Positions 22,098 to 37,079 of a stretch of DNA of 64,000 nt are shown here, piece by piece (position 1 is the stretch's first letter; the number at the start of each line of letters is the position of its first letter). Under the pieces are notes generated by a model, which was given only the letters and a program-made list of their open reading frames with translations, did not search any database and was not told the origin of the DNA. Position numbers and translations under genes: made by a program. This stretch comes from Amycolatopsis acidiphila (lineage in GTDB: Bacteria; Actinomycetota; Actinomycetes; Mycobacteriales; Pseudonocardiaceae), in assembly GCF_021391495.1 (NCBI RefSeq), contig NZ_CP090063.1, positions 6,138,001 through 6,202,000 on the forward strand. Direction: 5' to 3'.

Positions 22098-22245
22098 TGA
22101 AATCCACCTCGTCGGTCGGAAGCCTGTGGGGGCTTGTCTCAGGGTCTTGAGCTGTTGGGCCCGACACTACGGGCGGGGGCCGACAATTCCTGATCGCGGC
22201 GATCGATCTGTGGACAGCTGACCCCGATGTGGACAACACGATAGA

Positions 22246-22259
22246 CGAACACGTGTTCG
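22246..22259. promoter_or_regulatory. LexA (SOS) box upstream of recA
   Basis: CGAACACGTGTTCG is a perfect 14-bp palindrome matching the actinobacterial LexA consensus GAAC-N4-GTTC. It lies 149 bp upstream of the recA start. The same 14-mer recurs at 33577-33590. Confidence 0.9.
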
Positions 22260-22306
22260 ACGCAAGGACTGACACGCCTTAGGGGTGAAAAATCCGGCGG
22301 AGGGGC

Positions 22307-32180: not shown

Positions 32181-32945
32181 TCACCTCGTCGCCAACCGCA
32201 GCAATGCCCACAGCTGGGCTATCGCGTCCTCGCTGCCCGACCATTCGACGCCCCGGTGGTTCAACCGGCCCCACACCCACAGGTACATGGCCGTGGGGTC
32301 CGCCGAAACCAGGCCGTCGGCCCGCCCGGCCTCCTCGGCCGAACAGCGCCAGGCTTCGGTCACGCCAGGCCCCGCACGCGCGATCCAGTGGTGGCCACTG
32401 GTGCTGACCCCGACCGTCCTCGCCGTGGTGCCGGACAGGCCGAGCATCGGCAGCCGCTGGCCGAACCACACCGCGAGCGCCTCGTCCACGCCGTCCACGG
32501 CGAAGTCGTCGGCGATCACGGCGATCGGCTGGCCGGTCGCGTCCTCGACGTCGTAGCGGTGGATGGTGGTCTCGTGCGCCATCCGGCGCCACCAGAACCC
32601 GTACGTCCGGTCGGCAGGCCACCAGCTCGCGGCGAAGGAATCCGGGCTGTGCGTGGACAGCTCCCGCAGCAGCTCCGCGAGCCCGGCACGCAGGTAGTCC
32701 TCAGTGGACTGTCCGGGGTCGGGACCACGCTGCCATTCCCTGGGTGCGCGGCCTTCGGTGGTCCACAACCGCGCCACCCGGTAGACCCCGCCGATGTGCC
32801 GGACGATCTCGCCCACGGTGAACCCGGGGCAGCTGGGCACCGGGGTGTCGGCAGGCACCGTGTGCGTGGCGTCGAGCAGCAGCTCCACCTCGATCCCGAG
32901 CGCGTCCAGGAACCGGCCGTGCTCGATCAGGGCTTGTCCGGCCAT
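32181..32945 (-). CDS. Maleylpyruvate-isomerase-family mycothiol-dependent protein
   Basis: This 254-residue protein of the DinB/MDMPI fold has an N-terminal four-helix metal-binding domain (PSCPGFTVGEIVRHIGGVYR and, later, MAHETTIHRYDVEDATGQP, supplying His ligands) and a C-terminal MDMPI-C domain (GVSTSGHHWIARAGPGVTEA, VWGRLNHRGVEWSG). Family members use mycothiol as cofactor or substrate. The ATG shares one base with the TAA of the HEPN gene upstream (TAATG), so the two form a coupled operon, and the LexA boxes before that operon imply DNA-damage induction. A role in thiol-based detoxification is inferred. The longer ORF to 33152 overlaps the HEPN gene and is rejected. Confidence 0.85.
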   Translation of the reverse strand: MAGQALIEHGRFLDALGIEVELLLDATHTVPADTPVPSCPGFTVGEIVRHIGGVYRVARLWTTEGRAPREWQRGPDPGQSTEDYLRAGLAELLRELSTHSPDSFAASWWPADRTYGFWWRRMAHETTIHRYDVEDATGQPIAVIADDFAVDGVDEALAVWFGQRLPMLGLSGTTARTVGVSTSGHHWIARAGPGVTEAWRCSAEEAGRADGLVSADPTAMYLWVWGRLNHRGVEWSGSEDAIAQLWALLRLATR

Positions 32946-33442
32946 TACCGGCGCTGGACTTTCTTGCGCGTCGGCGGGGTGGCGCACTGGCGGACCGTGT
33001 CGGCACGCGGGTGCACCACGCGGTCGGCCAGCTCGAGGAACAGCCCCGCCTGGCGGCACAGCTCCGCCGCGGACTCCTCGGTGATGCGCCGGGTGATGCC
33101 GGCCTGGGCGGCAGCGCGGGCGGCCGAGTTCGCGGCGAAGAACGCCGACCATTCGGCCAGCTCGGGGGCGGCCGCTTCGAGCAGCACCCAGACGCTGGCC
33201 GGGCGGGCGCGGCCGCGGTGCGGGCGGCCACGGGCGGCGAGCACGGCGGCGCCGCCGCGGAGGGCGGCCAGGTACGAGGTGATGAACTTGGCGACCGGAT
33301 CCGTGGCGTGCTCGGCTTCGGCGAGGCCGTGGCGGGCCTCGTTCAGCAGTGCCACGGCGGCAGGCGCTGCGGGCGGCCGCACCGGCAGCGGCAGCTGGGG
33401 CTGCGCGGGGTCGGTGCGGGACGCGACGGTGGCAATGGACAT
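32945..33442 (-). CDS. SAV_6107-like HEPN-domain protein, LexA-controlled
   Basis: This 165-residue mostly helical protein resembles the SAV_6107 family of HEPN proteins of actinobacteria: AAVALLNEARHGLAEAEHAT, VAKFITSYLAALRGGAAVLA, then RRITEESAAELCRQAGLFLE. I do not see the canonical R-x4-6-H nuclease motif, so RNase activity is doubtful. I start at ATG 33442 behind GGGAGGGG; an open extension to 33595 runs across the LexA boxes and is not coding. Two LexA boxes and a 12-bp-stem hairpin lie upstream. It is translationally coupled to a mycothiol-dependent enzyme gene. Function unknown; SOS induction is the main clue. Confidence 0.82.
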   Translation of the reverse strand: MSIATVASRTDPAQPQLPLPVRPPAAPAAVALLNEARHGLAEAEHATDPVAKFITSYLAALRGGAAVLAARGRPHRGRARPASVWVLLEAAAPELAEWSAFFAANSAARAAAQAGITRRITEESAAELCRQAGLFLELADRVVHPRADTVRQCATPPTRKKVQRR

Positions 33443-33470
33443 TGCCCCTCCCTGTTCATGCTGGTGGTGG

Positions 33471-33517
33471 CGGTGCCCGGCGCCGAGACGCTTCCCCCGT
33501 CCCCACGCCGGGCACCG
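33471..33517 (-). promoter_or_regulatory. Long stem-loop in the leader of the HEPN operon
   Basis: CGGTGCCCGGCG (33471-33482) and its exact complement (33506-33517) form a perfect 12-bp GC-rich stem around 23 nt. It lies between the LexA boxes and the HEPN start, so it would be in the 5' untranslated leader, about 28 nt from the start codon. It may affect translation, transcript stability or early termination. Confidence 0.6.
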
Positions 33518-33541
33518 CACCGGCGAGCGCTCCACCGGGTG

Positions 33542-33557
33542 TCGAACCTGTGTTCGA
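33542..33557. promoter_or_regulatory. LexA box 1 upstream of the HEPN operon
   Basis: TCGAACCTGTGTTCGA is a palindrome of TCGAAC-N4-GTTCGA, the actinobacterial LexA consensus, 100 bp upstream of the HEPN start. Confidence 0.85.
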
Positions 33558-33576
33558 GCAAGTTCCAGCCTAACTT

Positions 33577-33590
33577 CGAACACGTGTTCG
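33577..33590. promoter_or_regulatory. LexA box 2 upstream of the HEPN operon
   Basis: CGAACACGTGTTCG is identical to the recA box at 22246-22259 and lies 34 bp (centre to centre) from box 1, immediately beyond the end of the decayed MocR gene. Confidence 0.88.
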
Positions 33591-33591
33591 T

Positions 33592-35068
33592 TCAAGTCCC
33601 GATCCGGTGATGTGACCTCCCCTGTCCCAGCACCGAAGCGAGCACCGCTATTCCCTGTTCGAGGTCACCGGGAGAGCTCGTGGCGTACCCGAGGACGAGC
33701 CCGGGCGGCCCCGGCCGCTGCCGGTGCCACGACAGCGGCTGCACCTTGACGCCACGGGCGAGCGCGGCCGCGGCCAGCTCGACGTCGGGAAACGTACCGT
33801 CGAACGTGATCATCAGATGCAGGCCGGCGGCGGCACCGTGCACGCGCGCCCGCGGCAGGTGCGTGCGGAGTGCGGCGATCATCACGTCCCGGCGCCGGCG
33901 ATGACGGCGCCGCAACAGGCGCAGCTGACGCTCCAGTTCCCCGATTCCATCAATTCCGCGAGAACGAGTTGAGGCAGTACGGAATTTCCGAGATCGGCCG
34001 CACGTTTGGCGGCGATCATCGCGGAACGGTATTTCCGCGGCACCAGTAGCCAGCCGACGCGCAGCACCGGCGCGAGGAGTTTGGACACGCTGCCCGCGTA
34101 GCAGACGCGCTCGGCGAGCATCGAGCGCAGCGCGGGCACCGGAGGCCGGTCGTAGCGGTGTTCGGCGTCGTAGTCGTCCTCGATCACCAGCCCGCCCTCA
34201 GCCGCCCACGCAGCAGCTCGCGCCTGCGCGCGCCGTCGAGGACGACACCGGTCGGGAACTGGTGCGCGGGGGTCATGAGGACCACGGGAGCACCGCTGCG
34301 GCGCAGGTCGTCGACGCGAAGTCCGCCCTCGTCGACCGGCACCGGTGGTGTGTCCAGCCCCCGGCCCCGCAGCTGCTCCCGTGCGCCGAGCGAACCGGGG
34401 TCCTCCACCGCCACCGTGGAGATGCCTTGGCGGCAAAGGACTCGCGCGAGCAGGACGAGCGCCTGCGCCACGCCGGACACGATGATCACGTCGTCCGGGT
34501 CGGCGGCGACGCCGCGGTTGCGGGCCGGCCAGTTCGCCACCGCACGACGGAAGACCGGCGCACCACCCGGATCGCCGTAGCCGAAGTCCGAAGGGGACAG
34601 TGCACTGAGTACGGTGCGTTCCGCGCGCAGCCACGCCGAACGCGGAAAGGCGGCCAGGTCCGGCACGCCAGGCATCAGGTCGATCCGCGCCGGAGCTGTC
34701 CGCAGCGACTCGAACACGTCGGCGTCCGGCACCGCCGGGAACACGGCCGGCGAAGCGGACGGCACCGGTTCGGGCGCGGAAACGGGCGCGGCGACGACGA
34801 TCGTGCCGGCCCACCCTGCCCGCCACGTGCCCGTCCTCGGTCAGCCGCTGATAGGCCTCGGTGACCGCCCCGCGCGAGACCCGCAGCTCCTCGGCCAGTA
34901 CCCGGGGTCGCGGGAAGCCTGGTGCCGACCGGCAGCCTGCCGTCCGCGATCGCGCCGCGCAGCCGCCGGGTCAGCCAGGCCACCCGGCGGCGCTTCCGAG
35001 GATTTCAGCTGGAGGAAGTCCGCACCGGTTATGGACCTGTCCTCGGAGGCTCCTTGGGATCTGTCCAT
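33592..35068 (-). pseudogene. MocR/PdxR-type regulator (GntR HTH + aminotransferase domain), multiply frameshifted
   Basis: Pieces of one protein appear in successive frames on the minus strand. They are MDRSQGASEDRSITGADFLQ (start at 35068); AWLTRRLRGAIADGRLPVGT (GntR-type winged helix); DLMPGVPDLAAFPRSAWLRA through QALVLLARVLCRQGISTVAV and APVVLMTPAHQFPTG (PLP-fold large domain); VIEDDYDAEHRYDRPPVPAL and CYAGSVSKLLAPVLRVGWLL (PLP Lys region); and LHLMITFDGTFPDVELAAAA (C-terminus). At least four frameshifts separate them over a normal length of about 480 codons. This is a decayed MocR regulator. It is divergent from a decayed EamA transporter, which was probably its target. Confidence 0.85.
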
Positions 35069-36012: not shown

Positions 36013-36513
36013 ATGAGCAGCCTCGACCACCCCGCGGTCGCGAAGGTCGCCGCCGCGCTGGCAGAAGCGGGTCAGCAGCGTGCCGCGGACGGGATCCGCA
36101 TCCTTCCCGCAGAAGTGCGCACAGCGGCGCAGGCCGCCGAGGCGCTCGGCGTCGAGGTGGGCGCGATCGCGAACAGCCTGATCTTCCGGGCCGTGCTCGA
36201 CGGCCGGGACGTGCCGCTGCTGTCGCTGACCTCCGGCGCGCACCGCGCCGACACCGGCAAGCTCGCGGAGCTGGTCGGCGCCACCGCCGTCGAGAAGGCC
36301 GACCCGGCCTTCGTCAGGGAGCACACCGGGCAGGTCATCGGCGGCGTGGCCCCGGTCGGGCACCCCGCGCCGATCGAGACGCTCGTGGACACCGCGCTCG
36401 AACAGTACGACGTGATCTGGGCCGCCGCCGGGCACGCCAAGTCGGTGTTCCCGACCACCTTCGCCGACCTGGTGGCGCTGACCGGCGGGCGCGCCGCGGG
36501 AGTGGGTACATGA
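36013..36513 (+). CDS. YbaK/EbsC-family aminoacyl-tRNA deacylase-like protein
   Basis: The 166-residue protein carries the YbaK/prolyl-tRNA editing domain. It reads QAAEALGVEVGAIANSLIFR, LLSLTSGAHRADTGKLAELV, then FVREHTGQVIGGVAPVGHPA and VIWAAAGHAKSVFPTTFADL, all typical. Such proteins hydrolyse misacylated tRNAs (Cys- or Ala-tRNAPro) in trans; the exact substrate is not evident. The stop overlaps the next gene's ATG (ATGA), so it is co-translated with a GNAT enzyme. Confidence 0.92.
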   Translation: MSSLDHPAVAKVAAALAEAGQQRAADGIRILPAEVRTAAQAAEALGVEVGAIANSLIFRAVLDGRDVPLLSLTSGAHRADTGKLAELVGATAVEKADPAFVREHTGQVIGGVAPVGHPAPIETLVDTALEQYDVIWAAAGHAKSVFPTTFADLVALTGGRAAGVGT

Positions 36514-37079
36514 CCACGGTGTCGACCCAGTTCGTCCCCCTGACCGCCGACGAGTTCCGGACCCGGCTCCGCGAGGCACTGGCCATCTACGTCGAGGCCA
36601 TGCGGTATCCGCCGGGCACCGCCGAGCAGCGCGCGCCGATGTGGCTCACGCACGCGCTGCGCGACGGCTGGCGCTGCTTCGCCGCGCTCGACGCCGACGG
36701 CACGATGCTCGGCGTCGCCTACGGCTACCGCGGCAGCCCTGGCCAGTGGTGGCACGAGCAGGTGCGCCGCGGTCTGGTGAAGAACACCGGCGAGGAGGTC
36801 GCCGGGCACTGGCTCGCCGATTACTTCGAGCTGACCGAGATCCACGTGCGGCCGCGGAGCCAGGCAGGCGGCATCGGCGAGAACCTGCTGCGGCGGCTGC
36901 TGGACGGGGTGCCGAACCGGCACGTCCTGCTGTCCACGCCCGAGGGCCCGAGCCGGGCCTGGAAGCTCTACCGCCGCGTCGGTTTCACCGACGTCCTGCG
37001 CGACTACCACTTCGCCGGCGACCCGCGCCCGTTCGCGATCCTCGGCCGCGAGCTCCCGCTGGAGCCCGCGGCCGAGTGA
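36510..37079 (+). CDS. GNAT-family acetyltransferase
   Basis: A 189-residue single GNAT domain: FRTRLREALAIYVEAMRYPP at the N-terminus, WRCFAALDADGTMLGVAYGY, then ELTEIHVRPRSQAGGIGENL, where QAGGIGENLL takes the place of the acetyl-CoA loop, and RAWKLYRRVGFTDVLRDYHF as the final family segment. The substrate is unknown. It overlaps the YbaK gene by 4 nt, suggesting a shared transcript, and ends 3 bp from the convergent EamA transporter gene. Confidence 0.88.
   Translation: MTTVSTQFVPLTADEFRTRLREALAIYVEAMRYPPGTAEQRAPMWLTHALRDGWRCFAALDADGTMLGVAYGYRGSPGQWWHEQVRRGLVKNTGEEVAGHWLADYFELTEIHVRPRSQAGGIGENLLRRLLDGVPNRHVLLSTPEGPSRAWKLYRRVGFTDVLRDYHFAGDPRPFAILGRELPLEPAAE

Follow-up and report, generated by a model that had tools for sequence, protein, structure and literature searches.

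A predicted LexA-controlled operon of a HEPN protein and an MDMPI-family protein, headed by a conserved leader RNA, in Amycolatopsis acidiphila and other Pseudonocardiaceae

DNA-damage tolerance in actinomycetes has been studied mainly in mycobacteria, and HEPN proteins have a four-helix fold. Among the described systems closest to the present one, the SAV_6107 group of HEPN proteins is scored 'No' for the ribonuclease (RNase) motif in the pertinent part of a 2013 HEPN survey (PMC3710099). Genotoxic stress is known to induce some genes of the DinB superfamily, and certain members of the superfamily are thiol transferases, according to the relevant extracts of two reports (PMC10693628; PMC5815605). 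In Corynebacterium glutamicum, the LexA regulon includes cg2381, a gene annotated as 'conserved hypothetical', which rises with ciprofloxacin (M value 3.86) and ranks next after divS (5.38) among the 'unknown function' rows in the excerpt of the study used here (PMC5055667). Here we analyze a two-gene operon in a 64,000-nucleotide stretch of the A. acidiphila genome (contig NZ_CP090063.1, positions 6,138,001 to 6,202,000; hereafter the window), in which a HEPN_SAV_6107 protein gene (product P0001) is followed by a gene for a protein of the MDMPI family, DinB superfamily (P0002). The operon lies behind two LexA boxes and is predicted to begin with a conserved RNA structure (Table 1).

To assess LexA control, we searched 150 genomes of the family Pseudonocardiaceae and examined closely the loci of 66 family genomes and of 60 genomes from the class, the latter being a non-random set that combines the 30 best PF18726 scores with 40 loci picked to cover families (10 in both). 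A LexA box with at most one mismatch was found within 900 bp upstream of the HEPN domain in 65 of the 66 family genomes, and the remaining one, G050, brings this to 66 of 66 with two boxes at about -1.1 kb (within 1.3 kb), ahead of a DUF6504-like gene. The class genomes have such a box in 46 of 60 cases, against a background, taken elsewhere in the same loci, of 0.008 and 0.010 per 900 bp. The 14 class misses comprise all 12 examined genomes of f20 (probably Streptomycetaceae), G256 (two mismatches), and G254, whose box at -1555 stands at the start of a DUF6504 open reading frame (ORF); counting G254, 47 of the 48 class genomes outside f20 carry an upstream box. Both boxes are kept in 7/7 genomes of the genus examined. 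The 14-bp core CGAACNNNNGTTCG has 13 exact copies in the 8.18 Mb genome, two of them here and one at recA; eight of the remaining ten fall within gene calls, one is intergenic (L001) and one lies at L005, where there are no gene calls. The box scan reproduced the two boxes of the initial annotation, with starts 34 bp apart and the distal one, on the gene strand, identical to the recA box at 22245-22260. The LexA control that it had proposed is strongly supported by this conservation, the boxes being anything but absent in relatives, and we regard the operon as almost certainly LexA-controlled. From gene order we infer that cg2381 of C. glutamicum is the HEPN gene, because cg2378 is mraZ, relatives read HEPN-DUF3040-mraZ, and PF18726 matches in the C. 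glutamicum genome.

Between the promoter region that holds the boxes and the HEPN gene lies a leader of about 100 nt, whose predicted fold reaches -60 kcal/mol (z -3.65; equalled by none of 200 shuffles). The initial annotation had described a 12-bp stem-loop here; it is real and longer than claimed, the main hairpin having 14 uninterrupted pairs and six more beyond an internal loop. A MAFFT alignment (A4) of 11 Amycolatopsis-type leaders, 10 of them distinct, gave 31 consensus pairs, and the first covariance model, made from 11 leaders, matched the leader in 35 of the 40 family loci L061-L100 at E ≤0.1 (it missed L086, L087, L088, L091 and L097). In a 59-row alignment 93.4% of the cells were paired and double changes occurred in 30 of the 31 pairs; covariation was 0.473, compared with 0.166 ± 0.008 after shuffling and ≤0.084 after sliding, and 0 of 500 shuffles reached any measure. 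The loop GGGGAAG was present in all 59 modelled sequences. Weighing against this picture, the structure of the model served as the template to which alignments A5 and A6 were fitted, which favours it; the independent alignment A4 gives double changes in only 9/31 pairs; and the exact sequence GGGGGAAGC stands 3' of the last LexA box, mostly 19-60 nt away, in 54 of the 66 family genomes and so not in all. The second model (R2) likewise misses 26 of the 150 family genomes. On balance the leader is, with little doubt, a conserved RNA structure on comparative grounds, and its covariation and the family-wide model matches carry the structured leader of the initial annotation beyond what was claimed for it.

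R2 matched 124 of the 150 family genomes. In 116 of these the match is the HEPN leader on the same strand; seven matches lie before MDMPI in HEPN-deficient loci and one (G072) is due to chance. Other class genomes yielded 6 matches in 196, those of G155 and G288 lying in the HEPN leader. Run on the 40 class loci alone, R2 gave nine matches at E ≤1, of which seven are the sense leader (L133-L136, L138, L140, L170), one is antisense to the leader (L158) and one lies elsewhere (L132). A scan for loop and stem found GGGAAG hairpins behind a box in 49 of the 66 family genomes and in 11 of the 60 class genomes (families f2, f3, f8, f12, f15, f18, f30, f39 and f41), where about 0.7 were expected. The A. 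acidiphila genome itself holds one model match, in this leader, among the best 150 scored of 28050 first-look candidates. Neither window 33300-33700 nor any of 20 class loci gave an Rfam 15 match that reached the gathering score, the only weak match in the window being mir-550 (24.6 bits, cut-off 81). Hairpins with a TCGACC loop occurred in the class leaders of 18 of 60 genomes, about 5 being expected and some of the matches lying in coding sequence; it is suggestive only that they form a second class behind the LexA box in non-family leaders (L139, L155, L161, L166, L167, L170). A kissing contact between the two loops is purely conjectural. As a separate observation, two loci of genus g5, L290 (about 3300, minus strand) and L291 (about 3085, plus strand), hold second copies of the GGGGGAAG hairpin without a LexA box; a short ORF (MGQNSRYER...) follows the copy in L290, and a similar start follows that in L291.

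P0001, encoded at 32948-33442 on the minus strand, matched PF18726 (HEPN_SAV_6107) in a Pfam profile search with 109.7 bits (cut-off 27.2); among solved chains, profile comparison placed 2hsb closest to it (E 0.0011). PF18726 was found in 137 of the 150 family genomes, one copy each, and in 142 of 197 class genomes and 72 of 91 genera, again as one copy each save for a weak second match in G154; in some genomes scoring covered only the best 30 first-look candidates. This applies to G021, G022, G029 and G059, four of the 13 family genomes that have no match; the fetched loci of G021, G029 and G059 gave no HEPN either, and that of G022 holds a HEPN remnant of 20.9 bits.

The neighbourhoods of HEPN were assessed in the 40 class loci with six-frame ORFs and phmmer, within about 8 kb; gene calls in the neighbour tables came from a simple codon-score script, which produced none for class loci L159, L162, L166 and L167. 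In 27 of the 40 loci HEPN has a polymerase gene nearby (dnaE2, imuB or DNA polymerase IV type, the last being polIV or dinB), downstream on the same strand in 26 and upstream on the same strand in one. DUF6504 was a neighbour in 16, DUF3040 in 26 and mraZ in eight. In four loci (f3, f19) the order is HEPN-imuA'-imuB-dnaE2, with HEPN directly ahead of the cassette; imuA' is so labelled from its position and because the four loci resemble one another there, Pfam giving no match. Membership in an ImuA'-ImuB-DnaE2 mutasome arrangement thus holds for the orthologues in those four loci and not at the window locus. Among the open papers searched, none was found to contain HEPN, ImuB and DnaE2 together, the term 'SAV_6107' occurred in one and 'DUF6504' in none. 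Our best inference from these gene orders, a tentative one, is that HEPN may be a translesion accessory. Several further observations concern the polymerase units. A class I S-adenosylmethionine (SAM) methyltransferase often stands between HEPN or dnaE2 and dinB (L140, L142, L155 and others), with a SAM_MT match in 20 of the 40 class loci. The A. acidiphila genome has one polIV gene that adjoins DUF3040, without HEPN there, and a polIV gene with a 2-mismatch LexA-like box at its start (L258:3902). A perfect LexA box at L257:2067 lies about 800 bp ahead of the imuA' start call; a gene that escaped recognition, or a start further upstream, may lie in between. The idea that standalone DUF6504 is the C-terminal module of ImuB was dropped, hhalign giving a probability of 0.6% and no profile similarity; a 105-aa ORF of Pseudonocardia loci is DUF6504-like (hhalign 99.7%).

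The second protein, P0002, scored 61.9 bits with TIGR03083 (cut-off 50) and 55.7 bits with PF11716 (MDMPI_N; cut-off 24.2), and stayed below the cut-off for PF07398 (MDMPI_C; 28.1 bits, 29.5 required). Its putative metal ligands are well kept among the 39 homologues compared: H124 and H129 in 39/39, H50 in 35/39 and E125 in 34/39. We take H50, H124, E125 and H129 to match the metal ligands of the C. glutamicum enzyme. A homologue is the next gene after HEPN in 61 of the 66 family genomes (the exceptions being four of g5 and one of g42), and in 23 of 39 loci the HEPN stop and the MDMPI start have 1 or 4 nt in common. Among class loci, neither the 30 short ones nor the 40 longer ones examined have an MDMPI gene after HEPN; L166 shows one MDMPI-like ORF match, which begins upstream of HEPN. 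The survey of MDMPI partners suggested by the initial annotation thus turned up the pairing throughout most of the family and nowhere among the class loci examined outside it. There is an even chance, in our judgement, that the MDMPI protein is a damage-induced thiol transferase. Electrophile handling is plausible, given that the probable metal-binding residues are preserved and that genotoxic stress switches on other genes of the DinB superfamily, according to the part of the literature drawn on above (PMC10693628).

The role of the leader can be weighed with the HEPN-deficient genomes. Inverted repeats near a promoter could also be a DNA site for a regulator, with the arms not acting as RNA at all, and this we consider highly unlikely: the arm sequences vary while the pairing stays, and the asymmetric loop is kept. 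A leader hairpin that is the binding site of HEPN itself, so that the operon would be autoregulated in the manner of a ribosomal-protein leader, would agree with the single match in the A. acidiphila genome and with the HEPN leader holding the match in 116 of the 124 matched family genomes. However, among the 13 family genomes without a PF18726 match, eight have an RNA match, and all eight loci were fetched; in seven of them the LexA box and the GGGGGAAG hairpin still stand before MDMPI, six with no HEPN match at E ≤0.1 and one with the 20.9-bit remnant, and the eighth (L288) is a chance match without box, loop or MDMPI. That box and leader stay with MDMPI upon HEPN loss makes simple autoregulation by HEPN less likely and points to a part for MDMPI itself in the SOS response; the hairpin copies of L290 and L291, before another short ORF and without a LexA box, also speak against such autoregulation. 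Thus weakened, autoregulation by HEPN appears improbable. We favour instead, with moderate confidence, a post-transcriptional control element, a role suggested because the hairpin is single-copy, fixed in place and partly able to pair with the ribosome-binding site.

The products allow two further explanations. HEPN could be an RNase effector whose SOS-induced cutting of RNA slows growth, the second gene being its partner or antidote as in HEPN/MNT toxin-antitoxin pairs. Family membership speaks for this, as does an R-x4-H motif that 51 of the 60 class genomes and 21 of the 66 family genomes have at the same aligned position. The window protein, however, has K and Y at that position and no R-x4-6-H anywhere; in the survey part cited above, its group is scored 'No' (PMC3710099); P0002 matches no nucleotidyltransferase in Pfam or NCBIfam; and the gene, instead of being patchy in distribution, is common and almost always present once per genome. 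An RNase effector is therefore given little credence, and action on RNA, which the initial annotation had raised, finds no backing in the window protein. Alternatively, HEPN and MDMPI may share only an SOS promoter and do separate jobs, damage tolerance and detoxification. MDMPI follows HEPN in just one of the families examined, it outlives HEPN loss, and HEPN occurs elsewhere without it, whereas the overlap of stop and start, seen in several genera and in 23 of 39 loci, suggests matched output; we hold this explanation to be possible, somewhat short of probable. The 'HEPN plus mycothiol' system of the initial annotation accordingly survives as a pairing kept in one of the families examined, and not as a core, since elsewhere HEPN is often with translesion polymerases.

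Taken together, the comparisons of regulation and RNA structure suggest a core SOS operon whose Pseudonocardiaceae form would combine a non-catalytic HEPN accessory of damage tolerance, an MDMPI thiol transferase and a hairpin as a second layer of control; for this strain, with the functions predicted, we judge the whole about evenly balanced between right and wrong. LexA bound to the two boxes across the promoter would repress the operon. Upon DNA damage, RecA and the self-cleavage of LexA would open it, a step that conservation supports and that we extend to this strain. The transcript would start with the conserved RNA structure, its main hairpin presenting the GGGGAAG loop, and this hairpin, whose structure covariation supports, may set the yield of the operon post-transcriptionally. 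HEPN, lacking the RNase motif, would most likely be a binding or adaptor subunit that aids translesion synthesis or protects a stalled fork, because in many families its LexA-controlled orthologues have imuA'-imuB-dnaE2, dnaE2-like or dinB genes as neighbours. MDMPI would probably be a metal-binding and probably mycothiol-using transferase that clears electrophilic DNA-damaging compounds or products. It is more speculative that actinomycetes in general have an RNA-level second SOS layer and that HEPN is an unrecognised translesion accessory across imuA'-imuB-dnaE2, dnaE2-like and dinB units, absent from mycobacterial models. If true, damage-induced mutagenesis would gain a component missing so far, a gene that has LexA boxes, occurs in 72 of the 91 genera sampled and is tied to error-prone polymerases of several kinds. 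The conserved RNA leader on a LexA-controlled operon likewise raises the testable question of whether actinomycete SOS output is also set after transcription.

The core-operon reading has to be set against a group of contrary points. The f20 genomes show at best a 2-mismatch box (several near -283), and the Streptomyces venezuelae LexA paper does not name the gene in the parts that bear on it, Table 1 among them, the word 'HEPN' being absent from its main text. HEPN is dispensable, since some genomes drop it and yet keep MDMPI, and since g47, probably the genus Mycobacterium, had no match in its nine listed genomes. No polymerase lies within about 8 kb in 13 of the 40 class loci, among which L134 ends at a contig end. 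A common ancestral place near dinB-DUF3040-mraZ may mean that the association is partly by descent and not fully independent, and the imuB-dnaE2 cassette of the A. acidiphila genome lies apart, at C1:741-748 kb, and has a separate LexA box, also perfect.

The features of the locus are collected in Table 1. The overlap of the two genes and their profile scores agree with the coupled pair (TAATG) of a SAV_6107-like HEPN and an MDMPI-family protein that the initial annotation had proposed. TTGAAC is kept across the 11-row leader alignment; a scan for consensus sigma-70 promoters found 0 sites and did not call the TTGAAC/TAGGCT hexamers. The ORF list offers a TTG start at 33595 that would engulf the leader; it is disfavoured, and the leader stretch is unlikely to be coding, because the leaders of relatives carry single-base indels.

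Table 1. Positions in the window of the features of the HEPN-MDMPI operon and its leader.
Feature	Position	Strand	Basis or remark
-35-like hexamer TTGAAC	33590..33595	-	read by eye from sequence; overlaps distal LexA box by 2 bp
Distal LexA box ACGAACACGTGTTCGA	33576..33591	-	1 mismatch; almost entirely within the interval between the -35-like and -10-like hexamers
-10-like hexamer TAGGCT	33567..33572	-	putative, read by eye; spacer to TTGAAC 17 nt
Proximal LexA box TCGAACACAGGTTCGA	33542..33557	-	0 mismatches to TCGAACNNNNGTTCGA
First leader hairpin (CCGGTG...CGCCGG)	33520..33538	-	helix 1: 91.3% of cells paired; both-side changes in 5/5 pairs
Main leader hairpin	33470..33518	-	helix 4: 97% of cells paired; both-side changes in 15/16 pairs
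Conserved apical sequence of main hairpin GGGGGAAGC	33490..33498	-	present in 59/59 rows of alignment A6
Ribosome-binding site AGGGAGGGG	33445..33453	-	partly pairable with CCACC 3' of hairpin (helix 5: 85-86% of cells paired)
HEPN_SAV_6107 protein gene (P0001, 165 aa)	32945..33442	-	ORF and PF18726 match
MDMPI / DinB-superfamily protein gene (P0002, 254 aa)	32181..32945	-	start overlaps HEPN stop as TAATG

Upstream of the operon on the same strand, window 33592-34826 holds an aminotransferase-type regulator, presumably MocR-like, that is apparently in pieces in different frames, with an Aminotran_1_2 match on one piece; in the relative G026, one gene call of 524 aa stands at that position. 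Window 36013-37079 holds tRNA_edit (YbaK-like) and GNAT genes whose synteny with the operon extends to many loci of both the family and the class.

Compared with known systems, the operon fits the actinobacterial LexA/RecA SOS regulon of S. venezuelae and C. glutamicum in having the same box consensus upstream, one box here being identical to that of the organism's own recA, and differs in that the HEPN gene is not named as such, nor a leader RNA layer described, in the parts of those reports that bear on it. The leader resembles the leader RNAs of Rfam in being a structured 5' leader and, unlike them, reaches the gathering score of no family. The window protein is a Pfam member of the HEPN domain proteins (HEPN-M, SAV_6107 group), without the RNase motif and without an MNT partner. 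The ImuA'-ImuB-DnaE2 cassette is likewise LexA-controlled, and the four f3/f19 loci place HEPN directly before it, whereas HEPN is no part of the mutasome as described in the sources at hand and the two units lie apart in the A. acidiphila genome. Finally, the damage-induced enzymes of the DinB superfamily, Bacillus subtilis dinB/BstG and the SiwR-controlled msmeg_1357-1356 of Mycobacterium smegmatis, share with P0002 a superfamily that includes thiol transferases and genotoxic-stress-induced members, as far as the extracts report (PMC10693628; PMC5815605); the window gene is set apart from them by its LexA boxes, its MDMPI subfamily and its coupling to a HEPN gene.

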